Shown: positions 31,555 through 60,590 of the stretch, in pieces
Numbering within the stretch: position 1 is the first letter of the stretch
Layout: each line of letters opens with the position of its first letter
Assembly (NCBI GenBank): GCA_018334165.1
Contig: JAGXTB010000245.1
Location: forward strand, 1-64,000
Reading direction: 5' to 3'
Length of the DNA stretch: 64,000 nucleotides
DNA from: Sphingomonadales bacterium
GTDB lineage: Bacteria > Pseudomonadota > Alphaproteobacteria > Sphingomonadales > Sphingomonadaceae
Notes under the pieces: generated by a model
Databases searched by the model: none
Told to the model about the DNA's origin: nothing
Seen by the model: the letters and a program-made list of their open reading frames with translations, nothing else
Translations under genes and position numbers: made by a program

Positions 31555-32259
31555 TGATCTGCTCCTTTGGAACATAGCAGAAACTTGGAAATCGAGAAGA
31601 CGAAAAGACTCGGGAACGGTCGCATTCTTCGGCGCCAATCCAAAGCACACTCCCCTCCCTCACTAGTGGGGGGCGGCTGCCCACTAATGGCGGATACGAT
31701 GCAGTGCGTCAGGCTCGCACCGCGAGCCAGCAAGGAACGGCACCCTTGCAAGGCTCGACGCAGCAGAACGCCAGGTGCGCGGGACTGGGCGCCAGCAGGC
31801 GTTTGGCAAGGAGAGCCGCAAGCGTGCCAGCGGGTCAGCGACAAGCAGGCCGCACCCTGGTCCGAGCCTGCGAGGCCAGAGTGCGACCATTAGGCATTCC
31901 CGCTCCGCATCGATGTCCGACTGTTCAGAACTTTCGGGCAGTCCAGGCTCGCGCTGAGAACGAGGGAAACTGCCCGTCATTCAGCCTATAGCGCATTTGC
32001 TGCGGAAGCAGAGGGGCGCAGCGTGCCGATGTGCTAAGGACAGGGCTGGCGACCGCAAACCGTAAGCCCTCGCTCAGCGGCATGATGATCAGCGGCGATT
32101 GCCACAGAGGTGTATTGAGCGAGCGAAAGTATTGGCAGCGTGCTCGTAAATCACCTTCTGATTGCGCGTCGTAGCGGCTACATCGTCACTTATGAATCAT
32201 GCCCCCTTCTTCCAACCGCAATGCATGGCACGTCGCGCCGTGCGCGGATGTGCGTGACC

Positions 32260-33429
32260 ATGGGGGCACCAATTTATCTCGACGGCTTTGCGACCTTGCC
32301 GCTCGCCCCGGAGGCGCGCAGTGCCATCCTGTCGGCCTGGGAACAGCCCGGTAATGCCGGCTCACCCAACGCGGCGGGAGAACGCGCCGCGAGCATCATC
32401 TCCAAGGGGCGGGCCGAAGTCGCTGCGCTGATTGGGGCGGCGCCTGGTGAAATCATTTTCACCTCCGGAGCGACCGAAGCCAATAATCTGGCGCTCTTGG
32501 GGGCTGTGCAGAATGCATCCACCCGCGATCCCACCCGGAAGAAGATCATCGTTACAGCGGTAGAGCATAAGGCAGTGCTGGAGCCGGCGCGGATGCTAGA
32601 GAAACAGGGATTTTCGGTCAGCGTCGCGCCGGTCGACAGAGACGGCCGGCTCGATCTCGCCGCTTTCGAAGCCTTGCTCAGTGATGATCTGTTGATCGCG
32701 TCGGTGATGCTAGTCAACAATGAGACCGGGGTCATCCAACCGGTCGCCGAGGCTGCTGCCTTGGTCCATGCAGTGGGCGGGCTGATGCACAGTGACGCCG
32801 CGCAGGCGGCGGGGAAGATAGCAGTCGACGTGCTTGACCTCGATGTCGACTATCTCAGCCTGTCGGCGCACAAATGCTATGGTCCGATGGGCGTCGGTGC
32901 GCTCTATGTTGGGGCCCATGCACCTAAGCCCACGCCGTTGGTGCATGGTGGTGGCCAGCAAGATGCGGTTCGTCCCGGTACTGAGCCGGTGGCGTTGATC
33001 GCAGGCTTCGGGGCTGCCGCCAAGGTCGCGCGTTCCCGCCTTGAGGGTGATGATTGCCACGAGCGGATGCTCATATGCAGGCTACTTGAGAGGCTCGCAT
33101 CGTTACAATTGCGTTTCCGACGGATCACCGGAGATGTCGCAGTCGTTCCCGGCAGTGCCGCACTCCAGCTTGCCGACGTCGATGCCGATCAATTGTGTGC
33201 CACGGTTGCCCGTGATGTTTCGCTCTCCACAGGATCGGCGTGCACATCCGGTCAAATCAAACAGTCACATGTCCTTGAAGCAATTGGAATTTCCGAAGAT
33301 GATGCGCGCCACGTCATCCGGATTTTCTGCCATCGCTATCAAAGTATCGATGAGATAGAGGCGGCGGCTGACCGCATTGTAGCCGCCGCAGACCAATCTC
33401 GGCTTGCTGCTGGAGAGGTTCGCCAGTAG
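32260..33429 (+). CDS. sspA: Cysteine desulfurase (SspA/DndA/NifS-like)
   Basis: IIFTSGATEANNLAL, SLSAHKCYGPMGVGALY PLP-Lys motif, LSTGSACTSGQ active-site Cys; first gene of the Ssp-like operon. Confidence 0.85.
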   Translation: MGAPIYLDGFATLPLAPEARSAILSAWEQPGNAGSPNAAGERAASIISKGRAEVAALIGAAPGEIIFTSGATEANNLALLGAVQNASTRDPTRKKIIVTAVEHKAVLEPARMLEKQGFSVSVAPVDRDGRLDLAAFEALLSDDLLIASVMLVNNETGVIQPVAEAAALVHAVGGLMHSDAAQAAGKIAVDVLDLDVDYLSLSAHKCYGPMGVGALYVGAHAPKPTPLVHGGGQQDAVRPGTEPVALIAGFGAAAKVARSRLEGDDCHERMLICRLLERLASLQLRFRRITGDVAVVPGSAALQLADVDADQLCATVARDVSLSTGSACTSGQIKQSHVLEAIGISEDDARHVIRIFCHRYQSIDEIEAAADRIVAAADQSRLAAGEVRQ

Positions 33430-33438
33430 CATTCACGT

Positions 33439-34359
33439 ATGAGGCGAGGAACAGTAACATTTGATTCGAAAGGGCAGTTTGCGGGCCATGAGACTTTCCC
33501 GCTCCGCCTTCTTTGGCTGAAAAAGGCGTTCGACGCAGTGGGCGATCACGCCGACGCGAGAACATTCCAAGAACAAGGAGCTATCGCACGCTTCGGCGTC
33601 GGCCGCAATATGGCCGCCTCAATGCGATATTGGGCACTGGCAACGGGCTTCTTCAACGAGATGGATCGGGTTATCACCCCCACCCCGCTCGGCCGCGCCA
33701 TCCTCGCCGATGATGGCCTCGACCCGTATCTCGAACAAGCCGCAACGATTTGGCTAGCGCATTGGCGTGTGGCCTCCACGCCCGACATGACAACGACGGC
33801 TTATTATGCCTTTAATCACCTCAGTGCGATCGAGTTCGATCCTGCCATGCTGGTCGAAGAATTGTTCTCGCTTGTCGAGGACAATGGTTGGCGGGCGACG
33901 CGCGGGACCCTTAAGCGCGACATCGAAGTTTTCCTGCGTAGCTATGTCCGGCGCGGCGACAGCCTCAATGAAGATGCGGCTGAGCCGCTGCTGGCCGAAC
34001 TCGCGATCATTCGGGAAGCGCGGCTCGGAGGTTGGTATGAGTTTGTGCGTGGCCCCAAACCTAGCCTGCACGACGCAATCTTCGCCTATGCGCTTGGCGA
34101 TTATTGGGAGCGGTCAGGGGGATCGACCACGCTGACCGCGGAGCAGATTTGCTATGCGGCGGGCTCACCGGGCCGTGTGTTCAAGCTCGACGAAGACAGC
34201 GTGGTTACGCGCCTGATGCGCCTTGATGACCTGACCGACGGCGCGTGGCAATGGGTTGACACTGCAGGTCTGCGCCAAATCCAGCGGACGGGCGCGTTTG
34301 ATGCGATGACCACGCTCAACCTTGCTTACCCCCGATCAAGCCTGAGGGCGGCCGCATGA
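33439..34359 (+). CDS. sspB: DUF4007 protein (SspB-like)
   Basis: GQFAGHETFPLRLLWLKKAFDAV, DUF4007 signature, between the desulfurase and ATPase genes. Confidence 0.82.
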   Translation: MRRGTVTFDSKGQFAGHETFPLRLLWLKKAFDAVGDHADARTFQEQGAIARFGVGRNMAASMRYWALATGFFNEMDRVITPTPLGRAILADDGLDPYLEQAATIWLAHWRVASTPDMTTTAYYAFNHLSAIEFDPAMLVEELFSLVEDNGWRATRGTLKRDIEVFLRSYVRRGDSLNEDAAEPLLAELAIIREARLGGWYEFVRGPKPSLHDAIFAYALGDYWERSGGSTTLTAEQICYAAGSPGRVFKLDEDSVVTRLMRLDDLTDGAWQWVDTAGLRQIQRTGAFDAMTTLNLAYPRSSLRAAA

Positions 34360-37300
34360 CCAAGCTCGCTTCGATGGTGACAATCGACCGCCGGTTCGCG
34401 CGTTCGGCACGTCTCGATGCTGACCTCAATGGCACACCCCCGCTGGTTGGCTATGTTCTGCAAGCAAGCGTCGCCAAGGCTCTGACGACACTCGCTGACA
34501 GCCAATGCGATAGCCACCAAGGCGCTTACACCTGGACCGGACCATATGGCGGCGGTAAGTCCAGCGCCGCACTGCTCGTTGCCAATCTGGTCGCTGGTAC
34601 CAAAGGCAATCGCAAAATCGCGCGCGATATTGCCGGTGAAGCCCTTACCCGGCTTTATGTCGAAGCGTTTCCCGAACCCAAAGGGCGCTGGAGGATTGTC
34701 GCGGTTACCGGCAGCCGGACCCGCTTGCGCGACGCCATTGTCGAAGCTGCGACCCTCGCGCTCGACTGGAGCTCGGCGCAAGCCGCTGACTATGGCGCAA
34801 GCGACGACGCCCTGATTGCCGCGCTGATTGCTGGTGGCGAAGCTACGTCGAGCGGCACGCTGCTGATCCTTGACGAACTCGGCAAGCTGCTCGAGCATGA
34901 GGCGCTTGAAGGCGGCGATGTGCATTTGCTGCAGGATCTCGCCGAGCGCGCGACACGCAGTAAAGGCCGACTCGTCGTCATCGGCATTCTGCACCAGTCG
35001 TTTGAGCAATATGCCGCGCGCGCAGCGCGAGATGCACGTCAGGAATGGGCCAAAGTTCAAGGCCGTTTCCAGGACATCGCCTTCCTCTCCGGGGCCGATG
35101 AGACGGTGGCGCTTTTGGGTCGGGCAATTACGGCTGAACATCCAGCCGATGCTGTCGAGCGCGCTGAGTTAGTAGCCGAGGCAGTCGCTAAGCGCAGGCC
35201 GACGGAAGTTGGAGTTCTCACCAAGGCACTAACCGATACGTGGCCGCTCAACCCCGTCAGCGCCTTGTTGCTCGGACCGATCTCTCGTGCGCGCTTTGCG
35301 CAGAATGAACGCAGCGTATTCGGGTTTTTGAGCTCGGCCGAGCCGTCGGGCTTCCAGGAGTTTCTCGAGCATGCCGACGAGGGCAGCGGCACCTACGATC
35401 CTGCGATGCTATGGGATTATATGGCCGCCAATTTCGGCATGTCGCTCGCTGCCGGAAATGACGGCAGTCGCTTCAGCCTCGCCTATGAGGCGATCGAGCG
35501 AGCCAGCGCAAAGGGCCAAGGCCTGCATGTTGCGCTGACCAAGTCGGCGGCTATCATCGAATTCTTTCGTAACGGCTCTGGCCTTGCCCTCGCGGATGAT
35601 TTTCTTGAAGCAGCTGTGCCGGGCGCAACGCCCAAGGCGATCAAAACGGCAATCAAGGATCTGCTCGATTGGGCGATCCTAATCCGTCAGCCCCGGCTTG
35701 GCGGCTATGCGCTGTTTGCTGGCAGCGATTTTGATCTCGATGAAGCGATAGGCCGCGCAGTGGCGCCGGTCGATTCACTCCAGCTCGAGGGCATTCCGCA
35801 GCGGGTGGGTTTCGGCTTTGCCGCCGCCAAGCGGCATTATTTCATGACGGGCGCCCTGCGGACCTTCGAAATCGCGCTTCAGGTGGTGACGCCCGACGAC
35901 GACGTCGATGGCCTCGTCGAACGCATTCTGGCGCGCCCGCAACGAGGAAGCGGTCTAATGCTGTTGTTGCTGAGCGATGGCACGTTGCCGCGCCAGGCGA
36001 CCGACGCGCTCACCAAAGCGACTGCGAAGGCGCTTAATGCGAGTGGGCGCGTCATTGCGCTCGGCAGTGCCAGCGAGAGCTTCGCGCTGCGCAACGCTGC
36101 GGCCGAGCTTATGGCAGTCGAACGCGTCTTTCGCGAACATCCGCAACTCGAAGGCGATCGCATCGCCCGGCGCGAGATCGCCGCGCGGCAGTCGCGTTGC
36201 ATCGACGAATTGCATCGCAAGCTCGAAGCGGCACTGGAAGGCGCCAAATGGTATCTTTCGCCGTCCCCGGGTAAGTCGCATTGCGAACCGCTTGCGGTCA
36301 TTGCCAGCATGCTGGCCGATGCCGGCTTTGCCAAAGCGCCGATCCTCAAGAGCGAATTGCTCCAGCGCGACAAACCTTCGTCCAGTGCCATGGCGGCGCT
36401 GCGTGACTTGGCTCATGCGATGGTCGGCGGACTTGAGCTCAAGCAGCTCGGCATGAAGCAATATCCTGCCGAGCTGGGTCTCTATCTCACTGTGCTCAAG
36501 CCGTTCGGGCTGCACCGGGAAATCGAGTCGGGCCGTTTCGATTTTTCCGGCCCGGATGACAGCCTCGAAGGCAATTCACTGCGGCCGGCCTGGGGCGTGC
36601 TGGACCAAGCTGGCGACGAACCGCTCGACATAGTCTACGCACGTTGGTCCGCGCCTCCATTTGGCATTAAGGGCGGAGTCATGCCGGCGCTTGCGTTGGC
36701 ATATATGCTCGCCAACCGGGATACGGTGGCAGTCTATATCGACGGAGTCTATCAGACGGTGATCGACGATGTTGTTGTCGACCGGCTGCTGCAAAAGCCC
36801 GGCAGCTTCCGTTTGCGGCGCATTGATCGCTCGATACGCGAAATGGCGTTTCTTAGCGGGCTCGCCAAGTTGCTGAAGGTCACGGAGAGCAGCGCATCGC
36901 TGCCAATCGCTGCTGCTATTTTCCAGCGTTTCGAAGCATTACCCAATTTTGCCAAACGTACCTTGCGGATTGATGCCGACGCTAAAAGCATTCGCGGCGT
37001 TGTGATGAAGGCCGACGATCCCGAGCGGCTGTTGTTCGATGATCTCCCCGCTGCGCTCGGCGATCGGCTATCGCCGGATGTGATCCACAACGCCATCATT
37101 GCGGCCGAGGCAAGCTATCCGGCGCTGCTCGATGAACTGCGCGTGGCGCTTGGGCGCGCACTCGGCATCGATCATCGGGATTTTGGCGGCATCGCCGAAC
37201 GCACACAGCTGATCCGCGGCATGACCAACGACTATAATTTCGACGCCTTCGCCGATCGCGCGGCGGCAATCGAACAGGGCACCGGGGATATCGAGAGCTT

Positions 37301-37664
37301 GGTCAGTGTGCTGCTGCACCGCCCTGCGCGAAACTGGTCGGACCGTGACCGCGAAGAGGCGCTGACTGAAATTGCACGCTATGGCCGACGCTTTCGCGAA
37401 CTCGAAGCGCTAGCGGTAGTTCGTGACCGCCGCACGCATAGCGAGGCGTTGGCGCTAGTGGTCGGCCTCGATCCCCTTGCTCCCCCGCTGATGCGCAGCT
37501 TCATTCTCACCGATCAGGAAAAGACGGCGGCTGCGGGCATGGCGGACAAGCTCGTTGCGGCGCTCCGCGCGGACAAAAGAGGCAGTCGCTTGCAGCTGGC
37601 GGCGCTGGCACGCGCTGTGGCTACACTTGCCGCTGAAACTGAGGATGAGGCGGAAGCGACATGA
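34356..37664 (+). CDS. sspC: Large P-loop ATPase (SspC-like)
   Basis: TGPYGGGKSSAALLVA Walker A, TLLILDELGKLLE Walker B; 1102 aa, overlaps sspB and sspD. Confidence 0.82.
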   Translation: MTKLASMVTIDRRFARSARLDADLNGTPPLVGYVLQASVAKALTTLADSQCDSHQGAYTWTGPYGGGKSSAALLVANLVAGTKGNRKIARDIAGEALTRLYVEAFPEPKGRWRIVAVTGSRTRLRDAIVEAATLALDWSSAQAADYGASDDALIAALIAGGEATSSGTLLILDELGKLLEHEALEGGDVHLLQDLAERATRSKGRLVVIGILHQSFEQYAARAARDARQEWAKVQGRFQDIAFLSGADETVALLGRAITAEHPADAVERAELVAEAVAKRRPTEVGVLTKALTDTWPLNPVSALLLGPISRARFAQNERSVFGFLSSAEPSGFQEFLEHADEGSGTYDPAMLWDYMAANFGMSLAAGNDGSRFSLAYEAIERASAKGQGLHVALTKSAAIIEFFRNGSGLALADDFLEAAVPGATPKAIKTAIKDLLDWAILIRQPRLGGYALFAGSDFDLDEAIGRAVAPVDSLQLEGIPQRVGFGFAAAKRHYFMTGALRTFEIALQVVTPDDDVDGLVERILARPQRGSGLMLLLLSDGTLPRQATDALTKATAKALNASGRVIALGSASESFALRNAAAELMAVERVFREHPQLEGDRIARREIAARQSRCIDELHRKLEAALEGAKWYLSPSPGKSHCEPLAVIASMLADAGFAKAPILKSELLQRDKPSSSAMAALRDLAHAMVGGLELKQLGMKQYPAELGLYLTVLKPFGLHREIESGRFDFSGPDDSLEGNSLRPAWGVLDQAGDEPLDIVYARWSAPPFGIKGGVMPALALAYMLANRDTVAVYIDGVYQTVIDDVVVDRLLQKPGSFRLRRIDRSIREMAFLSGLAKLLKVTESSASLPIAAAIFQRFEALPNFAKRTLRIDADAKSIRGVVMKADDPERLLFDDLPAALGDRLSPDVIHNAIIAAEASYPALLDELRVALGRALGIDHRDFGGIAERTQLIRGMTNDYNFDAFADRAAAIEQGTGDIESLVSVLLHRPARNWSDRDREEALTEIARYGRRFRELEALAVVRDRRTHSEALALVVGLDPLAPPLMRSFILTDQEKTAAAGMADKLVAALRADKRGSRLQLAALARAVATLAAETEDEAEAT

Positions 37665-38500
37665 CGAACGAACGCCATATTCTCGGGATTTCGGGCGGTC
37701 GCGACAGTGCCTCGCTCGCTGTCTACATGCGGCAATACCATCCGCACTTGCCGCTTGAATATTTCTTCACCGACACGGGCAAGGAGCTACCGGAGGTTTA
37801 TAGTTTTCTGGACAAGCTCGAGGGCTTTCTAGGCAAGCCGATACAGCGGCTTAATCCCGACCGCGATTTCGATTTCTGGCTCGACGAATATGGCAATTTC
37901 CTGCCTTCGCCACGCACACGCTGGTGCACCAGGCAGCTCAAATTGCGCCCACTCGAACATTGGCTAAAAGAGGATCTCGAAGCCGGCACCACGATCCATA
38001 GCTATGTCGCGATTCGTGCCGACGAGCCGAGCCGGGAAGGCTATCAGGCGACCCACCCCAATATGCGCGTACATTTTCCATTGCGTGATGCTGGAATAGA
38101 CCGCGCAGGCGTACTCGAGATCCTTGACCAGTCGGATGTCGGCGAGCCAGAATATTATAAGTGGCGATCGCGTTCGGGCTGCACCTTCTGCTTCTATCAG
38201 CAGAAAATCGAATGGGTGCGGCTCGCCGAGAACCACCCCGACCGCTTCGCCGAGGCGATCGATTATGAGAAGTCTGCGCTCAAGGACGGCTCGCCGTTTA
38301 CCTGGAGCCAAGGCGAAAGCCTGACCGAACTGATCGCACCCGACCGCGTCGACCAGATCAAAGCGGATTATGAAAAGCGCCGTGAGCGCCTCCGCCGCAA
38401 TCGCCGGACCAATCCGCTTTCGGCCAACACCGCTGAGACGATCGACGATGTCTATGGCATCGACGAAGGCTCGAGCAGTTGTGTCATCTGCCACAAATGA
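37661..38500 (+). CDS. sspD: PAPS reductase / ATP-pyrophosphatase (SspD/DndC-like)
   Basis: ILGISGGRDSASLAVYM PP-loop, FFTDTGKELPEVYSFL, RWCTRQLKLRPLE, C-terminal CTFC and CVIC. Confidence 0.88.
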   Translation: MTNERHILGISGGRDSASLAVYMRQYHPHLPLEYFFTDTGKELPEVYSFLDKLEGFLGKPIQRLNPDRDFDFWLDEYGNFLPSPRTRWCTRQLKLRPLEHWLKEDLEAGTTIHSYVAIRADEPSREGYQATHPNMRVHFPLRDAGIDRAGVLEILDQSDVGEPEYYKWRSRSGCTFCFYQQKIEWVRLAENHPDRFAEAIDYEKSALKDGSPFTWSQGESLTELIAPDRVDQIKADYEKRRERLRRNRRTNPLSANTAETIDDVYGIDEGSSSCVICHK

Positions 38501-38509
38501 GCTGAAGCT

Positions 38510-39397
38510 TCATCCGACGATGGCGGCATCAATTTCGATAGCAAAGGCGGTTCCGTCTGCTGGCCTCACATTTGATCGGTGATGAAGAGCTCGGAAGATC
38601 GGCTCAAACAATGCGTCGGGCCCTCGCCAGTCGTCGCGTGAGAGCACACCGGTCGGATGACTTCGATTGACAACGAACCAGAAGACAGATGCCAATTGAA
38701 AAACATCAGACGAAGCATCAATCGCATCATCCCGACCGATACTTCGGTTATTGGCTTCAGGTGACATCCAGAACCGGGGCCCGACTACCTCCCAATCGGG
38801 CGTCATGCGCTCTTCCTGCGGCAACCCGAGCATGTCGCAAAGACCATAGTCGCTCAGCACCCAGCGATCGCCCACGACTAAAATGTTGTCGGGTTTGATA
38901 TCACGATGGATCGCTTTGGTGTGAAGCTCACCGAGTCCCTCCGCCAAGCCGCGAAATTGAGCGAGAAAAATTTCCTTCGGTACATCTGCACGCCTGACTA
39001 GGTCGGTGAGGGCCTCCGTGGCGAGGATCATTACGATGAACGGCACAGACTTTTCCCCGCCGCCTCGACCGCGTTGGCGCCGCAGTTCTCCCACCACGTC
39101 GCCTGAATCCTGATACACGATCAAGTGCTCGTGCTTCAGATCCGCAAGCAGCGCGCGTTCGCGCGCAAATCGCATCCGGCGATGCTGCCGCAGATCGAGC
39201 AGGAATTTTATCGCATACTCCGTGCCATCGTTGAGATCGACGCACTTGTGGACGACGCCATTGCCGCCAGCCGCGATGCGTTCGCCGATCTCGTAGAGCC
39301 GACCTGATTCAGCCCGGATTTCATCGGGAATGACAACTGTCTCGCGCGGTGCCTGATCGCCCCGCCCACCAAATAGCTCCGCCATGTCAGGTTGCAT
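38510..39397 (-). CDS. Serine/threonine protein kinase
   Basis: IGERIAAGGNGVVHKC, EYAIKFL, IHRDIKPDNILV, SDYG; start MQPDMAELFGG overlaps the stop of the DUF262 gene. Confidence 0.88.
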   Translation of the reverse strand: MQPDMAELFGGRGDQAPRETVVIPDEIRAESGRLYEIGERIAAGGNGVVHKCVDLNDGTEYAIKFLLDLRQHRRMRFARERALLADLKHEHLIVYQDSGDVVGELRRQRGRGGGEKSVPFIVMILATEALTDLVRRADVPKEIFLAQFRGLAEGLGELHTKAIHRDIKPDNILVVGDRWVLSDYGLCDMLGLPQEERMTPDWEVVGPRFWMSPEANNRSIGRDDAIDASSDVFQLASVFWFVVNRSHPTGVLSRDDWRGPDALFEPIFRALHHRSNVRPADGTAFAIEIDAAIVG

Positions 39398-40631
39398 CGC
39401 CGCAGCCGAGGACACGCCAGCATGCGTTTGAGAGCTGGAATACGGTTGCGTCAGGGCGCCAGTCGAGCGCGAGCTCATATTCGCCATGGTCGTTGAACGA
39501 CTCTCCACACGCTACGCAATGGTCGAACAACTTCCCGTCAGCGCTGTGATCGAGCTGCGTTGCCATGACTTCGAGAACTTCATGTACAGAATTGTCTGGA
39601 CGGCGAGAGCGATAAGTACCCGACATGATACCTATTAGAAAGTTTTTCCGCCAAGAACGACTGCCGATAGTGTTGGCCTGAGACACGCATTTTATTGCAT
39701 ACTCGCTTAGTACGTCAATTTCGGACTCAGGAGCGATGTGCTCATCGAGGATTCGTAAGTCACCGCGCAGCGGATCGAGATCCTGGTCCTCGAGCTTATG
39801 TCCACTCTTTTGAAATTCGTGGATAGTTAAAAAGAGAGAGTAAAAGTCAGATTTTTGCTTGAAGCGGGTCTTGGCAAGGACAAGCTTTCCCGCCACGAAG
39901 ATTTTCTGAAAATCGGCCAGAACAGCGTCGAACTGAGTGCGAACCGCCATCTCGGCGACCTTGTCCCACGCAGCATACCGTGTGTAAAAATAGTCAAGAT
40001 CGCCCTTTTTGTCCTGCGGACCCTCGAGCATCCCAGCAAGTATCTCGGAAACGAACTCCACATCTCCCATTCGCCGGCGCTGCGCCACCGTGAATATGCG
40101 GGCCTCATCAAGATACTCATTTAGCGAGAGCTCAGTCGCTAACTCCAAAAAACGACCAGGGAAATCAGCCCTACGCAACTCCTGCTTGTTTAGAGGTAGG
40201 GAGTATTTGTTGACCCGAGAATATACTTCGCGAACCTCTTCCTCCGTAAAACCGACGGCTTCATTATAATCGATCTTGTATTGAAGTATGGCGTCTTGGA
40301 CATCGTCTGGAAGCTCCGAAAAATTCAACCCCTGGAACGGTCCATTATACGGCTCGTCGAGGGCGAACTCATCGCGCAAAAATGCAAGAATGGCGGATAT
40401 TCGTTGCTGTCCATCGATTACCTGCCGATGCGTGTGCCCTTTCCTGACCTCATTCCACAGGAACATCTTCGGCATTGGCACTTCACGCAGGATGGTGTCG
40501 ATCAACATGATCCTAGCGGCTGGATGCCAGACCTCTTTGCGCTGAAAGGAGGGCCGAAGCTCGAGACGTCCGAGCTCGTTCCAATCTCGAAGATCTGAAA
40601 TTGGATGCGGGCTAGAGTTCCACTTGGCCAC
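39387..40631 (-). CDS. DUF262-domain protein with cysteine-pair C-terminus (SspE-N-like)
   Basis: LRPSFQRKEVW, HRQVIDGQQRISAIL DUF262 core, C-terminal HCVACGESF...NACWRVLGC; no obvious DUF1524. Confidence 0.85.
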   Translation of the reverse strand: MAKWNSSPHPISDLRDWNELGRLELRPSFQRKEVWHPAARIMLIDTILREVPMPKMFLWNEVRKGHTHRQVIDGQQRISAILAFLRDEFALDEPYNGPFQGLNFSELPDDVQDAILQYKIDYNEAVGFTEEEVREVYSRVNKYSLPLNKQELRRADFPGRFLELATELSLNEYLDEARIFTVAQRRRMGDVEFVSEILAGMLEGPQDKKGDLDYFYTRYAAWDKVAEMAVRTQFDAVLADFQKIFVAGKLVLAKTRFKQKSDFYSLFLTIHEFQKSGHKLEDQDLDPLRGDLRILDEHIAPESEIDVLSEYAIKCVSQANTIGSRSWRKNFLIGIMSGTYRSRRPDNSVHEVLEVMATQLDHSADGKLFDHCVACGESFNDHGEYELALDWRPDATVFQLSNACWRVLGCGDAT

Positions 40632-40645
40632 GATACCTCAACCTT

Positions 40646-43600
40646 TCATGATTTCTGACTGCGTTCGCTTGCGATGATGGCGTCGACGGCTGCATCGATA
40701 TCATCATCAGAAAGGAACGGTGCTTGGGCATAAATTATCGCCGGCTCCCCACTCAGCCGCGCGGCTAGATGCCCCAAACCCAGCAGCTGTTCTGCACCTT
40801 TCACACCAAGCGCGATCTCGGATGTTCCGACGCTGGCAACCTTCAGGATCAGCCGGTTGCCGAGATTATCACGCAACTGCATCGGCATGACATTGGCGTC
40901 GGGCCGCTGTGCCGCAAAAATGAGGTGCATGCCGGCGGCGCGCGCTTTGACGCCCAGGCGTGAGACATTCGAGGTCACTGCAGACTTGTAGTCTTCGGTC
41001 AGCATCCACTCGGCGAACTCGTCATGGACCAGGAACACGCACGGCAGCCGTTCGGAGGGCGCGGCCTTGGTGTTGAACGACCGGATGTCGCGCGCGCCAT
41101 GTGCGCGAAACAGCTCGTAGCGCCGCTCCATCTCGGCAACGAGGCCTTCCATCACCTCGACGGCTCGGGTCTGGTTGACGATGACCCCGCCCTGGAGGTG
41201 CGGCAAGCGTTCGACCGCCGCATAATCAACGCCCATTTTAGGGTCGATCAGATAGATATGGGCGAGCTGACTTGAGTTCGTCGCGGCAATGTCGAGCAAC
41301 AGTGCCTGGATCAACACCGACTTGCCCGAACCCGTCGCGCCAGCGACGAGCGTGTGCGGCTCATGCTGCTGTCCGCCGGCAAAGGGGCCGCCGAGGTTGA
41401 GATACAGGATCTCGCCATCAAGCTCCTTGAGCCCGAGAACGAACGACGTGTTCACCCCGGCCGCGTTGCGATTGATCTCGCGCCGACCCCACACATCCCA
41501 GAGCGACACCAGCTGCCGTTGCGGGCGGGCGACGCCAACCACGATCTCACCGGGCAGGGGTGAGACCGAAATCAGCCTTAATCCATGCGTCGTGAGCAAC
41601 GCCGACTGGCGCGCTTCGATGTCTTCGACGCGGAGACGATCCGACCCCATGAAGCGGATGAGCGCTGCGTTTGGCGTCAGGCGCGTTGCAGTGATCTTGG
41701 CCTGAAGATTATAGTTGAGCAGTGCCGAGCGCAGCTTCTGCGCTGTCGCCTCAAGCCAGGTCTGCGCCTCGGCCGACTCTTCATGCGCCGCTTCGGCACG
41801 TGACTGGATGAGTGCTTCAATCCCCGTGCCGGTGACGGGTGCGACTGGCTGAGACGTCTGTTGCGCGGCAATCGCAGATTCAGCTTGGGTCTGCGGGGCC
41901 GAAACAGGTTCCTCTGAAACTAGGGACGCGTTGACTGCCAGATGCGCTGCGAATGGCTCGCCCGCTGCCCCGACTGGTTGCGGAGGACTCGGAACCGATG
42001 GCGTGCCGGAAGCCTCGGTGTCCGCTGACGCACCCCCGCTACCTTGTTCCTTGGGCTCCGGCTCCTCGCTGGCTATGCCGCCTTCGGGATCACCGTCATC
42101 ATCGTCCTCATCATAATCATGGGCGATCGGCTTGCTCGCTGGGCCGCTAGTATCGCCGACCTCAATTGTCTTGGTCCACTCGACACGCGGTGCCGGTTCT
42201 TGGAAGTTCGGCGTATCCCAGCTGTGACTCTGTCCAAGACCCGCGCGAATCGGGCCGAGTGGCGTGCGCGCCTGATAGGCCTTGATCAGCTGACGTAGGC
42301 CTTCGCGGGTAAAGCTCTCCTGCAAGCCACCCTTGATTCCGGTCAGCAATTCCTGATCGCCGTGCGAGCTTCCATCGCCGGCGGGTCCGGAGATGAATAT
42401 GTGCGAATAGCCACGCAAATCTATTGGCACCGCGCCACGACGGATGCCGTCGCGCACCCTTTCAAGGAGATTGGGTTGACCAAGCGCCGCAGTACCGTCG
42501 AGTAGTAGATCGGCGATCCGCGAGAGCCAAAGATCGCGATCGAGGCGACCCGGGTCGCCGAACAAGGCGTCGTCGATCCGCGCCACCGTTTGCCGGAGCT
42601 GGCTGCGTGACTTGCGACAAGCTTCGGCCGCACCCGACTGGTCGACATATTTGGCTTCGGTGACGATCGCGCGAAGCTGCGGTTTGCCCTCGGCATCGGT
42701 CGAGAGGCTCAGGCCGAGAATATCGGCAATGCCCTCTTCTTTCTGGCCAAGCCATTCGGCATAGTCGTCGAGCAGGAACCAAGCGACTGCCGCTGCCCCA
42801 CCCATTTCTTCGGCTATCAGGGCGCGGCTCAATACCAGACCGATCAGCTCGCCGGCCGATACACCACGTTTGGCAGCTCGCAGGACGATATCGCCGGAGA
42901 TGGCGTTTGCATCCTCAATCATGCGCTTTGCAAGCGCCGCCATTTGGGCGTCGTCGAGTCCGAGCGAAAGCTCGGTCAGCCGTCGCAGCACTAGGACATG
43001 CAGGATGCGCAGTTCAGAAGTCGAAGAGACGACCATGTTGCGCCCATGGGTACGCTGGCGCCGATAGCGGATGACATTGATGCCCTGCGCGGCGAGCTGC
43101 CGCTTATCGAGTAGATCGTCATAGGTCGCGACCCATTCGGCGAGCCCATGCACTTCCTCGAACATCGCCTTGAGGCCGCCGTCCTGGAACGAGATTTGGC
43201 GCGCGGGCAGATAATGCTCGTCGGGCGCATGAGACTGACGCCGAACGATGTTGGCAACGGCATCGACATAGGCCCAGCCGGCATCTGGCTGGCGCGGACA
43301 TGTGAGATAGCTTGTGGCCTTGAGTTCGTCTTCGGAGGTGACACGGCGGTAAGACCATCGCGCCGGAACATGCTCAAGCAGGCTCGGATTGTCGGCAATC
43401 GCCGGCACCGGAAACCATTGCTCACGTGCCTGTCGTGAAACGACATCGTGCAGGAAGGCGACATCGATCTCGCGCGTCCCGCTGCCGCTTGTCGTTCCAC
43501 TGTCGAGCATGACGCCAATGCGCAGTTTTGACATAAAGTTGCGTGAGGTCTCGCTCACCACCACCGCATCGGGATCGCCTTCGGTGCGCTCGAGCAGCTC

Positions 43601-46108
43601 GGTGTAAACTCGCGAAAGACGCGAGCGGTCGCGGTGACGCACCAACACATTGCAGTGCATCTCATCCTGATCCTGGACGGAACCCAGCGCATTGACGGTA
43701 GCTAGTGGCAGTCCTGCCGCATCGCAATTGTAGAGCATGATGCTGAGGTTCGAGCGCTCATGCGGCTGCAAGTCGAGATAGCGTTGAAGCAGGCTGCGGA
43801 TCTGCCTGGCAGCCTCGACTGGATCGACGTCGGTGGTGGCTTCGGACGGATCGCGCACCGGTCGCTCAACCAGGCTGTATTCGTTCACTGTGCTGGTCTC
43901 GGCCAACAGGATCGCTTCGCTGCCGTCATAACCAACCGCGACCTCCGGGAAAAGCGGATGGGCGAGCTCGTCGCGTAAGTCTGAAAAGAACAGACGGGGA
44001 TCGCCGAAATTAACATCGACGTCCGAGAGAAGATAGTCGGCAAGACCAGCGACTGAGCGCATCTTCGACGCACTCGCGGCAAGCCGCAGCGGGTGCCAAG
44101 GGGCAACAATCGCTGACGGTCCGCCACCTAATATGCGGACGGTACCGATACTGAGCAGCGGCTCCCACAAGTCCCGGCGATTGAGGTCGCCGACTGCGTG
44201 CGCGAGCAAGGCGCCAAGCAACGCGCCATACGCGTCGGCCTGCGCGATCAGCGTGCCCGAGGCGTAGCCCGAGCTTTGCAGCGCGGTGAGCGCCTGCCCA
44301 TAGAGTTCGGCGAAATGTGTCCAGGCGGCTTCGATTGCCGCGAAACCAATGGCGTCGATCTGCCCACCGTCCCGGGCAGCTTTCAACGCCTTGGGAAATA
44401 GCTTGGCGATGTCATCGCCGGCGTTAGTGCGTGGTACCAATGTGCCTGCATCCTGGCCAAAGGCAGGCTGCAAAGTGCCGACATCAGTGAGCGACACGGC
44501 CTGCAGGGCGCCCTTGCGGCTGACCGGCAGACGCGCGACGTGGCTGCGCACGAAGGGTCGCTTAAGCAGCCGCCCGATGTCCTTGGGCAATTCAAGCCCG
44601 ATTACGCCAGGCTCGGCAGACCAGATGAGCTGCACTGTCGCGCGCTCACTACCGACGGACAAGGCAACATCGAATTTGATCTGAATCGCGCCGCGCGCGG
44701 TCGATTCGTTCCGCCGGTACTTCTTCTGCCGCGCTTTCGCGCGATCAAGTAGCTCTTCATATTCGAAGAGGTGCGGCACATCCCATTCGACCGCCAAGCC
44801 AATCAGGTCCTTGAGGCCGCGATAGCGGAGACCGAAAGACAGCCCGACATCAGCGTTGAGGTCGAGGAATTGGTTGCGAGTTCGCCGCGACGATTTGATT
44901 ACCAGCCTACGCGATCCGCCGATAAGATTGACTTGCCCGAACAGCCGTTCGATCGCGCGCAAAAGCCCTTCAAGGAAATCCGTGCACTCGATCGGGCGGC
45001 CGAAAATGAACCGCTCCCATTTGACGCGCAGAGACTTGTCCTGCCCAAGCTCGTCGCGATGTGCCTCAAAGAAATCGCGGTCATCGTCACGCGTCTCCTT
45101 GAGCGACCGGGTCCTAAGCGTCGCCAGATAGTCTTGATCAGCCGTGCTCAGCCGGTCCGGCAGCGTGAAGTCGAAGAAGTTGATCGTCTCTTGGGCGAAC
45201 GATGTCTTCTTGAGCTTAATGCCCGAGAAGAGCTGAAGAACGCTCTGCCCTTCCCATTCAAAGCTCGCCAACGCTTCGGCCTCAGGCCCCCAACCGGGCG
45301 CAGTGTCGATGAAGGCATCGATCGTCGCATGGACTTCCGCCGGGATATCTTCGCGCACCTCGTCGAACTGGCTACGCAGTTCCTCGCTCTCGATGATCTG
45401 CCGATTGGGGCGCTGCTTGACCAGCAGCGGCTTGCGGTCAGACACCAGCTTCTCGAACAGCTTTTTCCAGCGCCGAGGCTGCTCGCGATCCTTGTCGCCA
45501 AGCGCCATGAAAAAGCCACTGTCACGAGGTAGACGCAGAGCCGGCAGGGCCCATCCCAACGCCGCCGCAACCGGTACCGCCTCGTTCTCGATCCGCTCGC
45601 GCGTCATTGCGACATAGGTGCCGACTTGATGCAGCGTCCAATCGTCGGCGCTGTTCAAGCCTTTGAGGGCTGCCTTCCAACCGACGATCTGACCTTCGCT
45701 CAAACCCAGCCCGGCTGCGGCAGCGTCGACCCAGGGCCCAGATTCCTCGGTGAGCTGCTTTGCCCCGATCAGCGTTACGTCGCCAAGCGATGCACCCTGA
45801 TCATCGTCGGTGTTCGCCAGCAGCATCGCAGGCTGGTCACAGGCTGAGTTTCGGACGCGCACGGTGCGCTCATCGGTGATGACTGTTTCGGGCAACCCGA
45901 ATGGTCCCACCAGATCGCGCGGCAGTGCAATCAACAGCTTGCTTGCAGTAGCAGGCTCGGCAAGCAACGCACGCGTGATCGCCGCAACTTGTTCGCCCGT
46001 CAATCGGTCTAGCAGATACCGCGCAAGTTCATCGTCGGGCGTTAAAGCCTCGAGGCGCAAGCGAATGGAGGTCGCGCCGGCGGCGCCGATCAGATCTGAC
46101 GGGGTCAC
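40646..46108 (-). CDS. sspH: Giant FtsK/HerA-type translocase-containing protein (SspH/DptH-like)
   Basis: About 1820 aa; C-terminal HTLVAGATGSGKSVLIQALLLDIAATN, IYLIDPKMGVDY, FLVHDEFAEWM; GTG start overlaps the sspG stop. Confidence 0.75.
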   Translation of the reverse strand: MTPSDLIGAAGATSIRLRLEALTPDDELARYLLDRLTGEQVAAITRALLAEPATASKLLIALPRDLVGPFGLPETVITDERTVRVRNSACDQPAMLLANTDDDQGASLGDVTLIGAKQLTEESGPWVDAAAAGLGLSEGQIVGWKAALKGLNSADDWTLHQVGTYVAMTRERIENEAVPVAAALGWALPALRLPRDSGFFMALGDKDREQPRRWKKLFEKLVSDRKPLLVKQRPNRQIIESEELRSQFDEVREDIPAEVHATIDAFIDTAPGWGPEAEALASFEWEGQSVLQLFSGIKLKKTSFAQETINFFDFTLPDRLSTADQDYLATLRTRSLKETRDDDRDFFEAHRDELGQDKSLRVKWERFIFGRPIECTDFLEGLLRAIERLFGQVNLIGGSRRLVIKSSRRTRNQFLDLNADVGLSFGLRYRGLKDLIGLAVEWDVPHLFEYEELLDRAKARQKKYRRNESTARGAIQIKFDVALSVGSERATVQLIWSAEPGVIGLELPKDIGRLLKRPFVRSHVARLPVSRKGALQAVSLTDVGTLQPAFGQDAGTLVPRTNAGDDIAKLFPKALKAARDGGQIDAIGFAAIEAAWTHFAELYGQALTALQSSGYASGTLIAQADAYGALLGALLAHAVGDLNRRDLWEPLLSIGTVRILGGGPSAIVAPWHPLRLAASASKMRSVAGLADYLLSDVDVNFGDPRLFFSDLRDELAHPLFPEVAVGYDGSEAILLAETSTVNEYSLVERPVRDPSEATTDVDPVEAARQIRSLLQRYLDLQPHERSNLSIMLYNCDAAGLPLATVNALGSVQDQDEMHCNVLVRHRDRSRLSRVYTELLERTEGDPDAVVVSETSRNFMSKLRIGVMLDSGTTSGSGTREIDVAFLHDVVSRQAREQWFPVPAIADNPSLLEHVPARWSYRRVTSEDELKATSYLTCPRQPDAGWAYVDAVANIVRRQSHAPDEHYLPARQISFQDGGLKAMFEEVHGLAEWVATYDDLLDKRQLAAQGINVIRYRRQRTHGRNMVVSSTSELRILHVLVLRRLTELSLGLDDAQMAALAKRMIEDANAISGDIVLRAAKRGVSAGELIGLVLSRALIAEEMGGAAAVAWFLLDDYAEWLGQKEEGIADILGLSLSTDAEGKPQLRAIVTEAKYVDQSGAAEACRKSRSQLRQTVARIDDALFGDPGRLDRDLWLSRIADLLLDGTAALGQPNLLERVRDGIRRGAVPIDLRGYSHIFISGPAGDGSSHGDQELLTGIKGGLQESFTREGLRQLIKAYQARTPLGPIRAGLGQSHSWDTPNFQEPAPRVEWTKTIEVGDTSGPASKPIAHDYDEDDDDGDPEGGIASEEPEPKEQGSGGASADTEASGTPSVPSPPQPVGAAGEPFAAHLAVNASLVSEEPVSAPQTQAESAIAAQQTSQPVAPVTGTGIEALIQSRAEAAHEESAEAQTWLEATAQKLRSALLNYNLQAKITATRLTPNAALIRFMGSDRLRVEDIEARQSALLTTHGLRLISVSPLPGEIVVGVARPQRQLVSLWDVWGRREINRNAAGVNTSFVLGLKELDGEILYLNLGGPFAGGQQHEPHTLVAGATGSGKSVLIQALLLDIAATNSSQLAHIYLIDPKMGVDYAAVERLPHLQGGVIVNQTRAVEVMEGLVAEMERRYELFRAHGARDIRSFNTKAAPSERLPCVFLVHDEFAEWMLTEDYKSAVTSNVSRLGVKARAAGMHLIFAAQRPDANVMPMQLRDNLGNRLILKVASVGTSEIALGVKGAEQLLGLGHLAARLSGEPAIIYAQAPFLSDDDIDAAVDAIIASERSQKS

Positions 46109-47652
46109 GTGGCTTGGGCTCGCTGGAAGGGGTTTTCGACATAGGCGCAACTATCGGAGAGCCGCTTCAAGAGCCCGAGGCTGGCAAGTCGCTCTTCCAA
46201 GCGGTGCGCGTTGTCGGAAAAATCCTCTTGGTCGGCGGTGCCGGAATCAATGAATTGGCGCGCCTGCGCGTCACCGATCACAAAGCCATAACGCTCGTGA
46301 ATGCGCACCAGAAAATCCTTGAACTCGAGGCGTTCGCTTACACAGGCGATGACAAGCGTTTTGAGAAGTCGGTCGGTCGGGGCGTACCGGACCCGGCGGC
46401 TCGATCGGCGAGACGACAGGCCGATCACGCGGGCCCAGCTCATGTGGATCTTGCCCACATGCTGTTTGTGGCGAACGGTTGCGCGCTCGACAAGCGCATC
46501 GACAAGAGCCCGCGGTTCGGCCGAGAGTTCATCATCATCGCCATCGGGCCAGCCAAATTCCTGCTTCAATATGTCGATGGCGTTGAGCGTGGGATCGTCC
46601 GAGGCCAACGCTTCGGTCCAAGCGCCGGTCTCGGTAACTCGTCGCACGAAGCGTTCGATTGCCTGCTGCGGCAGCATGTTGTTGTGCTGGTAGCTATCGG
46701 CCGAGAGGTCACGCACCACCGATTTACGGGGAGAAACGATCTCGCACACCAGGCTGATCGGCGGTCGGTCGAGCAGCTCGCGCGCACGGTCGAGCTGATA
46801 TAAAATGAGATTCAGGCCCGTCATTGTGACGAGATGCGGGATCGCGTCATGCGCCGGGATTGGCAGATTCAGGATCGCCAGCCAGTCAGTGGCCAATCGG
46901 TCGAAGGTTGGATGGCTTGAGCAAGGCAGATAAGCGCCGGCGCGTTCCTGCTTGGCTAGCTGCTGCTCGCCCTGCAAGGCATGCGCCATACTGTCATAGG
47001 GTGCCGGGCTTTCGAGGAAGCGACTGACCAGCAGTCCACGCAAGGCATCGGTATGCTGGCTGCGGCTCAGCATCAAATAGAGGAGTTCGCCGGATCGCGC
47101 GAAAAAGCGGCGGTCGTTCGAGACGCTGCCGCTCGGCTTGACGTTCACATCCTCGTACAGCGCGTGTGGACCGAAGGGAAAAACAAACTTCGAACTCCAG
47201 CGCTTGTTGCTCGTCCCTTCGATCGCCGAGCCTTGGAGAAAGCTCAGTACGGCGGCAAAATCGTCGAAATTCTCGAACCGGTCGCGCAGATAGGCGAAGT
47301 CAGGCCGCTCGATACCACCAGCGCTCTCGGCCATTCTTTCGAGCCACATCGCCCAGGCCGCTTCGTCCGATCGCGCCTCTGCGCGCACCGTCATGATATG
47401 CGGGTTGTTGAAGACGAGATTGCGCAGCCGCAATTGCAGCTGCGGTTTGTACGACAGGCTGTTGAGGCGCTCCTCCTTGAGCGCTCGACCCTCTCGGTGT
47501 TCGGCGAGCAGAACCGTCATGAATTCGAGGAAAATCAGCCAGGGCCCCTGCTCGTCGTGCAAACGATGGCCCCAGATCGCCTCGTCGATCCAGAATGCCG
47601 GACCTGCACGATCTTCAAATTCGATAGGGCGGGCCAGGATTTCCATTGTCAT
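46105..47652 (-). CDS. sspG: SspG/DptG-like protein of the phosphorothioate-linked restriction operon
   Basis: Positional: between the SspF- and SspH-like genes, 4-nt overlaps on both sides. Confidence 0.6.
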   Translation of the reverse strand: MTMEILARPIEFEDRAGPAFWIDEAIWGHRLHDEQGPWLIFLEFMTVLLAEHREGRALKEERLNSLSYKPQLQLRLRNLVFNNPHIMTVRAEARSDEAAWAMWLERMAESAGGIERPDFAYLRDRFENFDDFAAVLSFLQGSAIEGTSNKRWSSKFVFPFGPHALYEDVNVKPSGSVSNDRRFFARSGELLYLMLSRSQHTDALRGLLVSRFLESPAPYDSMAHALQGEQQLAKQERAGAYLPCSSHPTFDRLATDWLAILNLPIPAHDAIPHLVTMTGLNLILYQLDRARELLDRPPISLVCEIVSPRKSVVRDLSADSYQHNNMLPQQAIERFVRRVTETGAWTEALASDDPTLNAIDILKQEFGWPDGDDDELSAEPRALVDALVERATVRHKQHVGKIHMSWARVIGLSSRRSSRRVRYAPTDRLLKTLVIACVSERLEFKDFLVRIHERYGFVIGDAQARQFIDSGTADQEDFSDNAHRLEERLASLGLLKRLSDSCAYVENPFQRAQAT

Positions 47653-49610
47653 ACCCGCACGATCACCCGGCGCGGCTGGGCGCGACCATCGGGATTGAGT
47701 TCGATGAAGCGCAGGACCAGCTCACCAGCAGGCGATTCCTCCTCGCCGTCGAGCTTGCGCCGATTTTCGGTCTCGCGCAGCAGCCGCGCCTTAAAGGCCA
47801 GCAAATCCTCATGGCATTCGAGCGAGAAGCTGCTCGGCAGCGCGCCTTCGGCGACGCGGCCAAGAAATTCGAAGCGCGTCGGCGACAAGGACAGGAAAAC
47901 CGGGGCAATCTCACTGCCTCGCACCAGCTTGACCGACACGCCAAAGCCGCCACTTTGGTCGGCTACGATGCTGACTTCTTCGCCGCCCGAGCGCGGGACC
48001 GAAATCAGCTCGTCGAGGAGCGGGCTACGCTTCGACTGCGAGTAGCTGCCCGAGGTCGCCAGCACGAGCTCATCCTGGTTCTGCACTAGCATTCCGGTGA
48101 AAATGCGATTGAGACCGCGCACCACCATGTTCAGGGCCGACCGCGGCACGGCCTGCCGCGCCGCAATCTTTTCGGCAACCTCAAGATAGAGGCCGGCGTA
48201 GCGGAACACGGTCAGGTCCCAGAGATCATAATCATCTGCTTTAGCGTCGGGCATCGTGAAGAACAGACGCTGACGCTGCGCGCGCAGCACTCCAAGAAAA
48301 CTCGAACGATCGCCATCATCGGCGCCTTCGAGATAGCTGCGCTGCGCCGTCGCATAGGCAGGCGTCGCGCCATAGACTGGATCGCCCAGTACCAGCGCGG
48401 CATAGTCGGCGGAGTAAGCCGGATCGTCAGCTCCATAAACCAGGAGATTGTCGACCCGGTTGCTGGTCTCAGCGCCGATGCCGAAGGCGTTGAGTTTGCG
48501 AAACAGCTCGGTCTTCTCGGCCTTGCTGGCTTTCAGATTCTCGCCAAAGACATTACGGTAGATGCTCGCAAGGTCGGACTTGCCGGACGCCTGGATCGCC
48601 GTGACATCGTTGCAGCTCATCAAGCCGTCGCGCGCGTCTGGATGTCCGAGAATCGCATTTGAGACCAGCGCCAGCAGCTGCCGCACCGGGAAATGGCTAC
48701 CATTTCGTTCGCTGAGCTCGATCAACTCCGTTAGTCGGCGTTTGAACAGATCGTCCTGATCCTCACCGATAAGCCGGCTGCGATTTTCGAAGATTGGGCA
48801 TTTGCCGTCGCCGCTGGCGTCGCAACTCTCACAACCTGCCCAGCCCTCATGGCCGGTTACCTCGTTGATGATGGCCATCGCCATATCGGCGGCCGGCGAC
48901 CGGCTGAGATCGGTCAGGTTGAGCGCAATGCCGGCGTCCGAGCTGACGCTGGTCACTAGCAAGTCTTCGACCACCTTCCCGACGCGCACCACTTCGGGCG
49001 TGGATGGTGCGGATTTGAGCTTCTCGAGAAGCTGGCCGTGATTGGCTGCGAACAGGTAGAAAGTTTGGGTTCCCGGATCGCCGACGTCACGCGCGAACTC
49101 GACGATCAGCTCATCGCTCTCATCGTCGCGCAGCTCGCTCAAATCCTTGACGATAACGAGCGTCCGTACTCCGACGGCGAGGCGCTGGATCTTGTCGCCG
49201 TGGTTCCAAGTGGTGACGTCTCCGCCTAGTTCCGTCCAAACTTCGCGGCAATGATAGGTTTTGCCATCGCCAGCGGTGCCGGTAATGATGTGCGAAACGG
49301 GCGTGTCGCCCTGGAACATCGCGACGAGTTCGTCGCGAAGCGGCGCAGGTAGTGTGATCGGACGGATCTTGTGGCGCCGCAATGCTCGCTGAATCGACTC
49401 ATCGTACATGTTGTCGTTGGTCGGAATCGGCCCGTAGTTCCGAAGAAAACGCACCCATGCTGCGGTGGTTGGATTCGCCAACAAGCCCTGCCCCCAAAAG
49501 TTTCCGAAATAGGCACACCCTGTGCGAATCGGTCTACGACGTTCGTAACTTAGCGCCAGTAATCGGAAACTACCGATAACATCGAAATTCTGAAAACAAA
49601 TGGTGCTCAA
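47649..49610 (-). CDS. sspF: P-loop ATPase (SspF/DptF-like)
   Basis: IITGTAGDGKTYHCREVW Walker A, CESCDASGDGKCPIF Cys cluster, first gene of the minus operon. Confidence 0.7.
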   Translation of the reverse strand: MSTICFQNFDVIGSFRLLALSYERRRPIRTGCAYFGNFWGQGLLANPTTAAWVRFLRNYGPIPTNDNMYDESIQRALRRHKIRPITLPAPLRDELVAMFQGDTPVSHIITGTAGDGKTYHCREVWTELGGDVTTWNHGDKIQRLAVGVRTLVIVKDLSELRDDESDELIVEFARDVGDPGTQTFYLFAANHGQLLEKLKSAPSTPEVVRVGKVVEDLLVTSVSSDAGIALNLTDLSRSPAADMAMAIINEVTGHEGWAGCESCDASGDGKCPIFENRSRLIGEDQDDLFKRRLTELIELSERNGSHFPVRQLLALVSNAILGHPDARDGLMSCNDVTAIQASGKSDLASIYRNVFGENLKASKAEKTELFRKLNAFGIGAETSNRVDNLLVYGADDPAYSADYAALVLGDPVYGATPAYATAQRSYLEGADDGDRSSFLGVLRAQRQRLFFTMPDAKADDYDLWDLTVFRYAGLYLEVAEKIAARQAVPRSALNMVVRGLNRIFTGMLVQNQDELVLATSGSYSQSKRSPLLDELISVPRSGGEEVSIVADQSGGFGVSVKLVRGSEIAPVFLSLSPTRFEFLGRVAEGALPSSFSLECHEDLLAFKARLLRETENRRKLDGEEESPAGELVLRFIELNPDGRAQPRRVIVRV

Positions 49611-60513: not shown

Positions 60514-60532
60514 TGGTAGCGGAGGAGGGACT
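60514..60532. repeat. Right direct repeat of island (att site within tRNA-Met 3' end)
   Basis: Identical 19 bp to 43-61. Confidence 0.85.
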
Positions 60533-60590
60533 CGAACCCCCGACACGCGGATTATGATTCCGCTGCTCTAACCAGCTGAGCTACTCCGCC
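60514..60590 (-). tRNA. tRNA-Met (CAU), elongator
   Basis: GGCGGAGTAGCTCAGCTGGTTAGAGCAGCGGAATCATAATCCGCGTGTCGGGGGTTCGAGTCCCTCCTCCGCTACCA; cloverleaf arms and encoded CCA. Confidence 0.95.

Follow-up and report, generated by a model that had tools for sequence, protein, structure and literature searches.

Defence based on phosphorothioate (PT), a sulfur mark that a bacterium places on its own DNA, has so far been described as a modification system joined to a DNA-cutting module. SspE and DndI sense the PT mark with a P-x-Y-Q pocket (PMC11662687, PMC13251355) and use their DUF262 NTPase as an allosteric switch (PMC13251355, PMC11662687); DndI, the DUF262 effector of the dndFGHI operon, works alone with the modification genes (PMC11662687). 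Kinases also occur in such settings: some DndF proteins carry a fused Ser/Thr/Tyr kinase domain (PMC10853773), and KKP and Stk2 are toxic anti-phage kinases (PMC11341870). The published SspFGH paper names neither a kinase nor a DUF262 protein, and our search of open-licence papers (preprints lay outside it) returned no description of a DUF262 protein paired with a kinase in a PT system.

Here, we analyzed such a pair in a stretch of 64,000 nucleotides from a Sphingomonadales bacterium (the window), whose assembly comprises 3.09 Mb in 247 contigs and is 94% complete. F-type conjugation genes, TraN among them, are present in the window, which is thus probably plasmid DNA; a tRNA-Met gene (CAT) lies at 60514-60590 on the minus strand. 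All seven components of the SspABCD-SspFGH PT defence were matched in it by PADLOC. The modification genes run rightward over 32140-38500, namely the cysteine desulfurase SspA (32140..33429, plus strand, 2.2e-111), the DUF4007 protein SspB (33439..34359, plus, 8.5e-104), the ATPase SspC (34356..37664, plus, E 0) and SspD of the PAPS-reductase family (37661..38500, plus, 1.1e-133). Running leftward over 49610-38510 are SspF (47649..49610, minus, 2.4e-244), SspG (46105..47652, minus, 3.6e-218) and the FtsK-like SspH (40646..46150, minus, E 0), followed by the DUF262 and kinase genes as the last two of the operon. The gap between SspH and the DUF262 gene is 14 bp, and the kinase gene converges on SspD with 9 bp between their ends.

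Both open reading frames of the pair lie where the preliminary description had placed them. The DUF262 (GmrSD_N) protein (39387..40631, minus strand) has 414 aa, a ParB-like fold and, as was originally proposed, no nuclease domain: GmrSD_N was the only Pfam domain found in it (6.9e-20), and GmrSD_C/DUF1524 was found by Pfam neither in the protein nor anywhere in the host assembly. Among 13 other pair-bearing genomes or records, GmrSD_C gave two matches only, both away from the pair; the protein therefore agrees with neither SspE nor a split GmrSD. A GmrSD with its DUF1524 supplied in trans was discarded for want of GmrSD_C in the host's own assembly. The nucleotide-pocket motif DGQQR (residues 73-77; 40401..40415, minus) is present, with D73-R77 invariant in 16 sequences, as are P27, F29, Q30 and R31 of a P-x-F-Q-R motif (residues 27-31; 40539..40553, minus). 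The latter occupies the site of the PT-sensing P-x-Y-Q patch of SspE and DndI, with phenylalanine for tyrosine in 16/16 sequences. It was not usable as proof of PT sensing, since the same PFQR occurs in a 362-aa DUF262 relative (L041) beside which no Ssp genes were detected.

The protein can be described as a core equivalent to a DUF262 type that is common and about 360 aa long, to which L041 belongs, extended by a tail of about 65 aa that is absent from L041. The tail (C372-x2-C375 ... C403 ... C410; 39402..39518, minus) is specific to the family, and the cysteine pair noticed at the outset proved to be real and conserved, C372 being found in 16/16 sequences and C375 in 15/16. In divergent members it reads CPxC...W...FQxSN...(V/I)HxxC, a Cys2-His-Cys pattern resembling half a LIM or treble-clef finger. 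The group to which the window belongs has lost the histidine, usually with a cysteine four residues earlier (C403) in its place, and a few family members lack a complete ligand set. Of the two suggestions made for this region, a zinc ribbon or a degenerate HNH, the first came close, as the tail is probably a zinc finger for which zinc binding is likely, judging from the residue pattern. The second did not hold: there is no GmrSD_C match and no catalytic-type histidine conserved family-wide in the tail, and a degenerate HNH or DUF1524 was rejected on both counts. A Pfam search with the isolated tail, at E values up to 5, gave no significant family. A frameshifted nuclease C-terminus, conceivable from an out-of-frame HNH-like 'ACPRLRRCN', was dismissed because homologues conserve the in-frame tail. 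Presence of the tail coincides with that of the kinase: no kinase match was obtained at 32 more distantly related DUF262 loci, most of them judged on 1.5-kb flanks only. In the phage collection, the DUF262 matches were all partial.

The second gene encodes a Hanks-type Ser/Thr kinase (38510..39385, minus strand; Pfam Pkinase 6.5e-22) of 291 aa when counted from the ATG at 39385, a start assigned by homology. Its domain is PknB-like, with a mean pLDDT of 81 in the structure model, and it has the Gly-rich loop, AIK lysine, HRD and DFG-type aspartate of Hanks-type enzymes. The motifs GGNGVV, AIKF, HRDIKPDN (catalytic loop, 38885..38908, minus), SDYG and SPE are all kept, and unbroken homologues conserve them, apart from DFG/DLG and APE variants, HRDIKP-x-N occurring in every one of them. 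In agreement with the initial reading of these motifs, the kinase is predicted to be catalytically active. The host assembly has no other Pkinase match, and hence there is no apparent host Ser/Thr kinase network for this kinase to join. The kinase start had been placed inside the DUF262 gene, and an in-frame ATG does exist there, at 39397 within GATGCAACCTGA. However, six close relatives of the kinase begin with MA(x)LFxG, which corresponds here to the ATG at 39385-39383, one base past the DUF262 stop. Given this shared N-terminus, the start is probably 39385, outside the DUF262 gene, the two genes still being tightly coupled. The coupling itself is borne out elsewhere, as the two genes are adjoining or overlapping at nearly every locus.

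How does the pair compare with the systems already described? With SspE and DndI it shares a DUF262 domain with DGQQR and the linkage to PT modification genes, and DndI, like the window pair, is encoded in the operon of an FGH module (PMC11662687). Unlike them, it has no DUF1524/HNH in cis or in the genome, it carries phenylalanine for the PT-sensing tyrosine, and it has a kinase partner. A PDB sequence search with the DUF262 protein gave no meaningful chain match, SspE and DndI included; the AlphaFold2 model (mean pLDDT 84) found its closest PDB folds in BrxU, a GmrSD-family enzyme, and then in ParB proteins; and the best PADLOC match was NsnA of Menshen (2.2e-37), over residues 7-261 only. 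The earlier label 'SspE-like' is therefore weak, and membership of SspE was rejected for the lack of a PDB sequence match, of DUF1524 and of the tyrosine. DndI remains the closest functional analogue, with a separate kinase here in place of its nuclease domain. Menshen (NsnA), PD-T4-2 and Dazbog also have a DUF262 protein without DUF1524 that works with a partner (PMC10952713). The partner in the window, however, is a kinase where Menshen has an OLD-type nuclease, and the window pair adds a probable zinc-finger tail and a linkage to PT; neither NsnB nor NsnC lies beside the DUF262 protein, whose neighbours are SspH, the kinase and SspD.

On the kinase side, kinase-fused DndF and PglW of BREX type 2 likewise join a Ser/Thr/Tyr kinase to PT or BREX-type defence (PMC10853773, PMC12839542). 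In those systems, however, the kinase forms one domain within a large polypeptide that also includes NERD and pseudokinase parts, whereas the window kinase is a separate, single-domain protein paired with DUF262. In MADS (MAD6 kinase, MAD7, MAD8) a kinase adjoins SspG/SspH-like proteins, as it does here, but in the window the modification is PT and the partner of the kinase is DUF262; the window kinase scores 46 bits against MAD6, where the equivalog cut-off is 460. At their C-termini, SspG matches MAD7 and SspH matches MAD8 (window 40646-47652), which suggests that the MADS and Ssp FGH modules are related. KKP and Stk2 resemble the window pair in that a Hanks-type kinase may be the effector (PMC11341870); unlike KKP, the window pair has a DUF262 partner, with no second kinase in the assembly and no phosphatase among the adjoining genes.

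We compared 16 pair loci, the window's own and further ones, from Pseudomonadota, Cyanobacteriota, Bacillota and Elusimicrobiota. Searches of genome contigs, plasmids and whole genomes returned full-length relatives of the pair in Alphaproteobacteria, another Pseudomonadota group (G060), Paenibacillus, Elusimicrobiota and Pseudanabaena. Over 14 loci, the distances of the DUF262 protein and the kinase correlate at 0.95 (partial correlation 0.93 given SspD), those of the pair and SspB, C or D at 0.57-0.68, and those of SspB, C and D among themselves at 0.95-0.99. Purifying selection on both genes of the pair is strong (dN/dS about 0.03-0.07), and full-length homologues of the pair occur in many loci, so that the observation is not a product of chance.

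Every pair locus examined carries Ssp modification genes (SspC and SspD being divergent in L038), and the linkage to the PT system proposed at the start is thus supported. The order and orientation of the pair relative to SspABCD vary, and the two genes are always together. In the plasmid collection, a DUF262 match of at least 45% identity over nearly the whole query was found in 5 records, the same 5 that have a kinase match of at least 39%; all 5 have SspD, which occurs overall in 83/72,556 records. These observations bear on the view that the pair is an ordinary independent defence cassette residing in Ssp islands and making no use of PT. Defence genes do cluster in islands, and by PADLOC the DUF262 core is nearer to Menshen NsnA, and the kinase nearer to PD-T4-6/MAD6, than to PT proteins. 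Nevertheless, SspD- or SspC-type genes stand at every pair locus examined, in distant phyla and in several gene orders, whereas hitchhiking would be expected to yield some pair loci devoid of Ssp. We consider this the least probable of the readings weighed here, with a small chance of being right.

The companion nuclease module, by contrast, varies. SspFGH accompanies the pair in the window and in L033, L034, L035 (same contig as L055), L036, L045/L056, L046 and L054; genes of the PbeA/C type do so in L032, L038, L040 (PbeA seen) and L053/L075; and a helicase-HATPase-PLD set in L037, L039 and L052. Only two related Asticcacaulis plasmids (L043, L044) have the pair with no recognised nuclease module, and a gene for a DndB-like 775-aa protein is present in them. 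Conversely, 30 of the 33 plasmid records with SspG have no pair (3/33 have it), and in L070, L071 and L072, close relatives of the window locus, SspD directly abuts SspH where the pair would sit. The pair was accordingly discarded as a required part of SspFGH, and the preliminary idea that it serves the SspFGH complex was not supported. The abutting SspD and SspH genes of these relatives, and another two-gene unit (675 and 784 aa) in the SspD-SspH junction of a Polaromonas plasmid (L074:12844-17222), point to this junction as an accessory slot.

A comparison with S. macrogoltabida is informative in this respect. Its SspBCD are 97-99% and its SspFGH 91-95% identical to those of the window, while its DUF262 protein and kinase are only about 48% and about 53% identical: the pair has been exchanged as a cassette. 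Furthermore, its DUF262 gene is in three pieces as a result of two insertions of mobile elements (L045:16001-21065, L056:8584-8694): residues 1-337, residues 335-399 after about 3.9 kb and, about another 34 kb along the coordinates of the circular record, the end, which lies before the kinase. The kinase, SspABCD and SspFGH are nonetheless all open. In Rhizobium sp. C1 (L036) it is the kinase frame that is broken, possibly through a sequencing error, with DUF262 and SspFGH intact. Since one host has lost the DUF262 half and the other the kinase half, neither would be needed alongside SspFGH, and an obligatory brake is disfavored. Altogether, the genomic comparisons depict the DUF262 protein and the kinase as one facultative unit, inherited together and co-evolving, that is bound to the PT modification genes whichever nuclease is present.

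The main rival to our interpretation is that the pair is a regulator of SspBCD or of the nuclease, the kinase phosphorylating SspB/C/D or nuclease subunits so as to license, brake or time PT modification or cutting, for instance as the plasmid becomes established in a new host. The constant company of SspABCD suits this explanation, and so does the toxicity of SspFGH in the absence of PT (PMC8092258), which would make a control device useful. Phosphorylation as a means of control has a parallel in a phage Ser/Thr/Tyr kinase that disables DndFGH, according to work cited in PMC11662687, and a DGQHR/DndB-like protein, a known type of regulator, takes the accessory place in some other Ssp loci. 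However, SspABCD-SspFGH functions in E. coli without the pair (PMC8092258), most SspFGH loci do without it, and in S. macrogoltabida SspABCD and SspFGH are intact next to a split DUF262 gene. In addition, pairs about 50% identical go with Ssp proteins 91-99% identical, which gives no sign of tight co-evolution with Ssp. On balance we regard a regulatory role as rather unlikely.

The same broken gene weighs against a backup of the toxin-antitoxin kind, in which a toxic kinase silenced by DUF262 would, as in KKP, be freed upon an attack on the defence. In S. macrogoltabida an intact kinase reading frame lies beside the shattered DUF262 gene, although that kinase may be unexpressed. Tight gene coupling, the co-evolution of the two proteins, the absence of any other Pkinase gene from the host assembly and the precedent of KKP as a toxic kinase (PMC11341870) speak for it; the antitoxin-first gene order proves little alone. 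We think this improbable.

Our preferred explanation, to which we assign somewhat less than an even chance, is that the pair is a facultative DUF262-sensor/kinase module on the SspABCD PT system, an extra signalling arm beside the nuclease. Most likely the pair is such a further signalling effector and does not belong to the SspFGH machine. In this mechanism, the NTPase pocket of the DUF262 protein would read either an infection cue or the state of the DNA (with or without the PT mark), nucleotide turnover would change the shape of the protein, the zinc-finger tail would relay this change to the bound kinase, and the kinase would phosphorylate host, phage or Ssp proteins so that the infection is stopped. 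By analogy with DndI in the dndFGHI operon, the pair could thus be an extra arm beside the nuclease. Points against this explanation are the phenylalanine at the PT-sensing site, in a PFQR shared with L041, and the presence of a nuclease module at nearly all pair loci, which leaves autonomy of the pair no more than a possibility. A more specific form of this explanation, which we put forward tentatively and hold to be doubtful, is a PT-dependent phosphosignalling module in which the nuclease-less DUF262 protein reads PT and activates the kinase via the tail, as a second SspABCD effector that acts by phosphorylation and can be plugged in beside any nuclease. The recurrence of the pair with PT marking across four phyla, whatever the nuclease, suggests an undescribed, phosphorylation-based arm of immunity. 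If this is true, a phosphorylation pathway also takes its input from the PT mark, and on the host side the pair would mirror the phage kinases by which PT defences are disabled. Two genes plus SspBCD would make a small, testable system for DUF262 switches wired to non-nuclease outputs.

The survey of Ssp loci brought up further associations. A DGQHR/DndB-like protein of about 417 aa is encoded in pair-less Ssp loci (L065, L067, L072, L073) and is possibly an alternative accessory gene; DGQHR/DndB was found in 0/16 loci with the pair versus 4 of about 12 without it, a small and non-random sample in which mutual exclusion is suggestive only. At the two Asticcacaulis Ssp loci with the pair, the DndB-like 775-aa protein is accompanied by a 219-aa protein (L043:24730-27718, L044:24701-27689). 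A helicase, a MORC-like HATPase (MzaB-like) and a PLD protein (DrmC-like) are encoded beside SspABCD in L058, L061, L067, L069 (helicase and HATPase seen) and L073 as well as in L037, L039 and L052, and apparently form a further nuclease-type Ssp module besides SspE and SspFGH. PbeA/PbeC(/PbeD)-type genes have been described with Dnd genes in archaea; here they were found with bacterial SspABCD in L032, L038, L040 (only PbeA seen), L053/L075, L063 and L065. Finally, in Sinorhizobium americanum (L071:22154-24056) a SIR2-family gene lies by another DUF262 gene, just beyond SspF.
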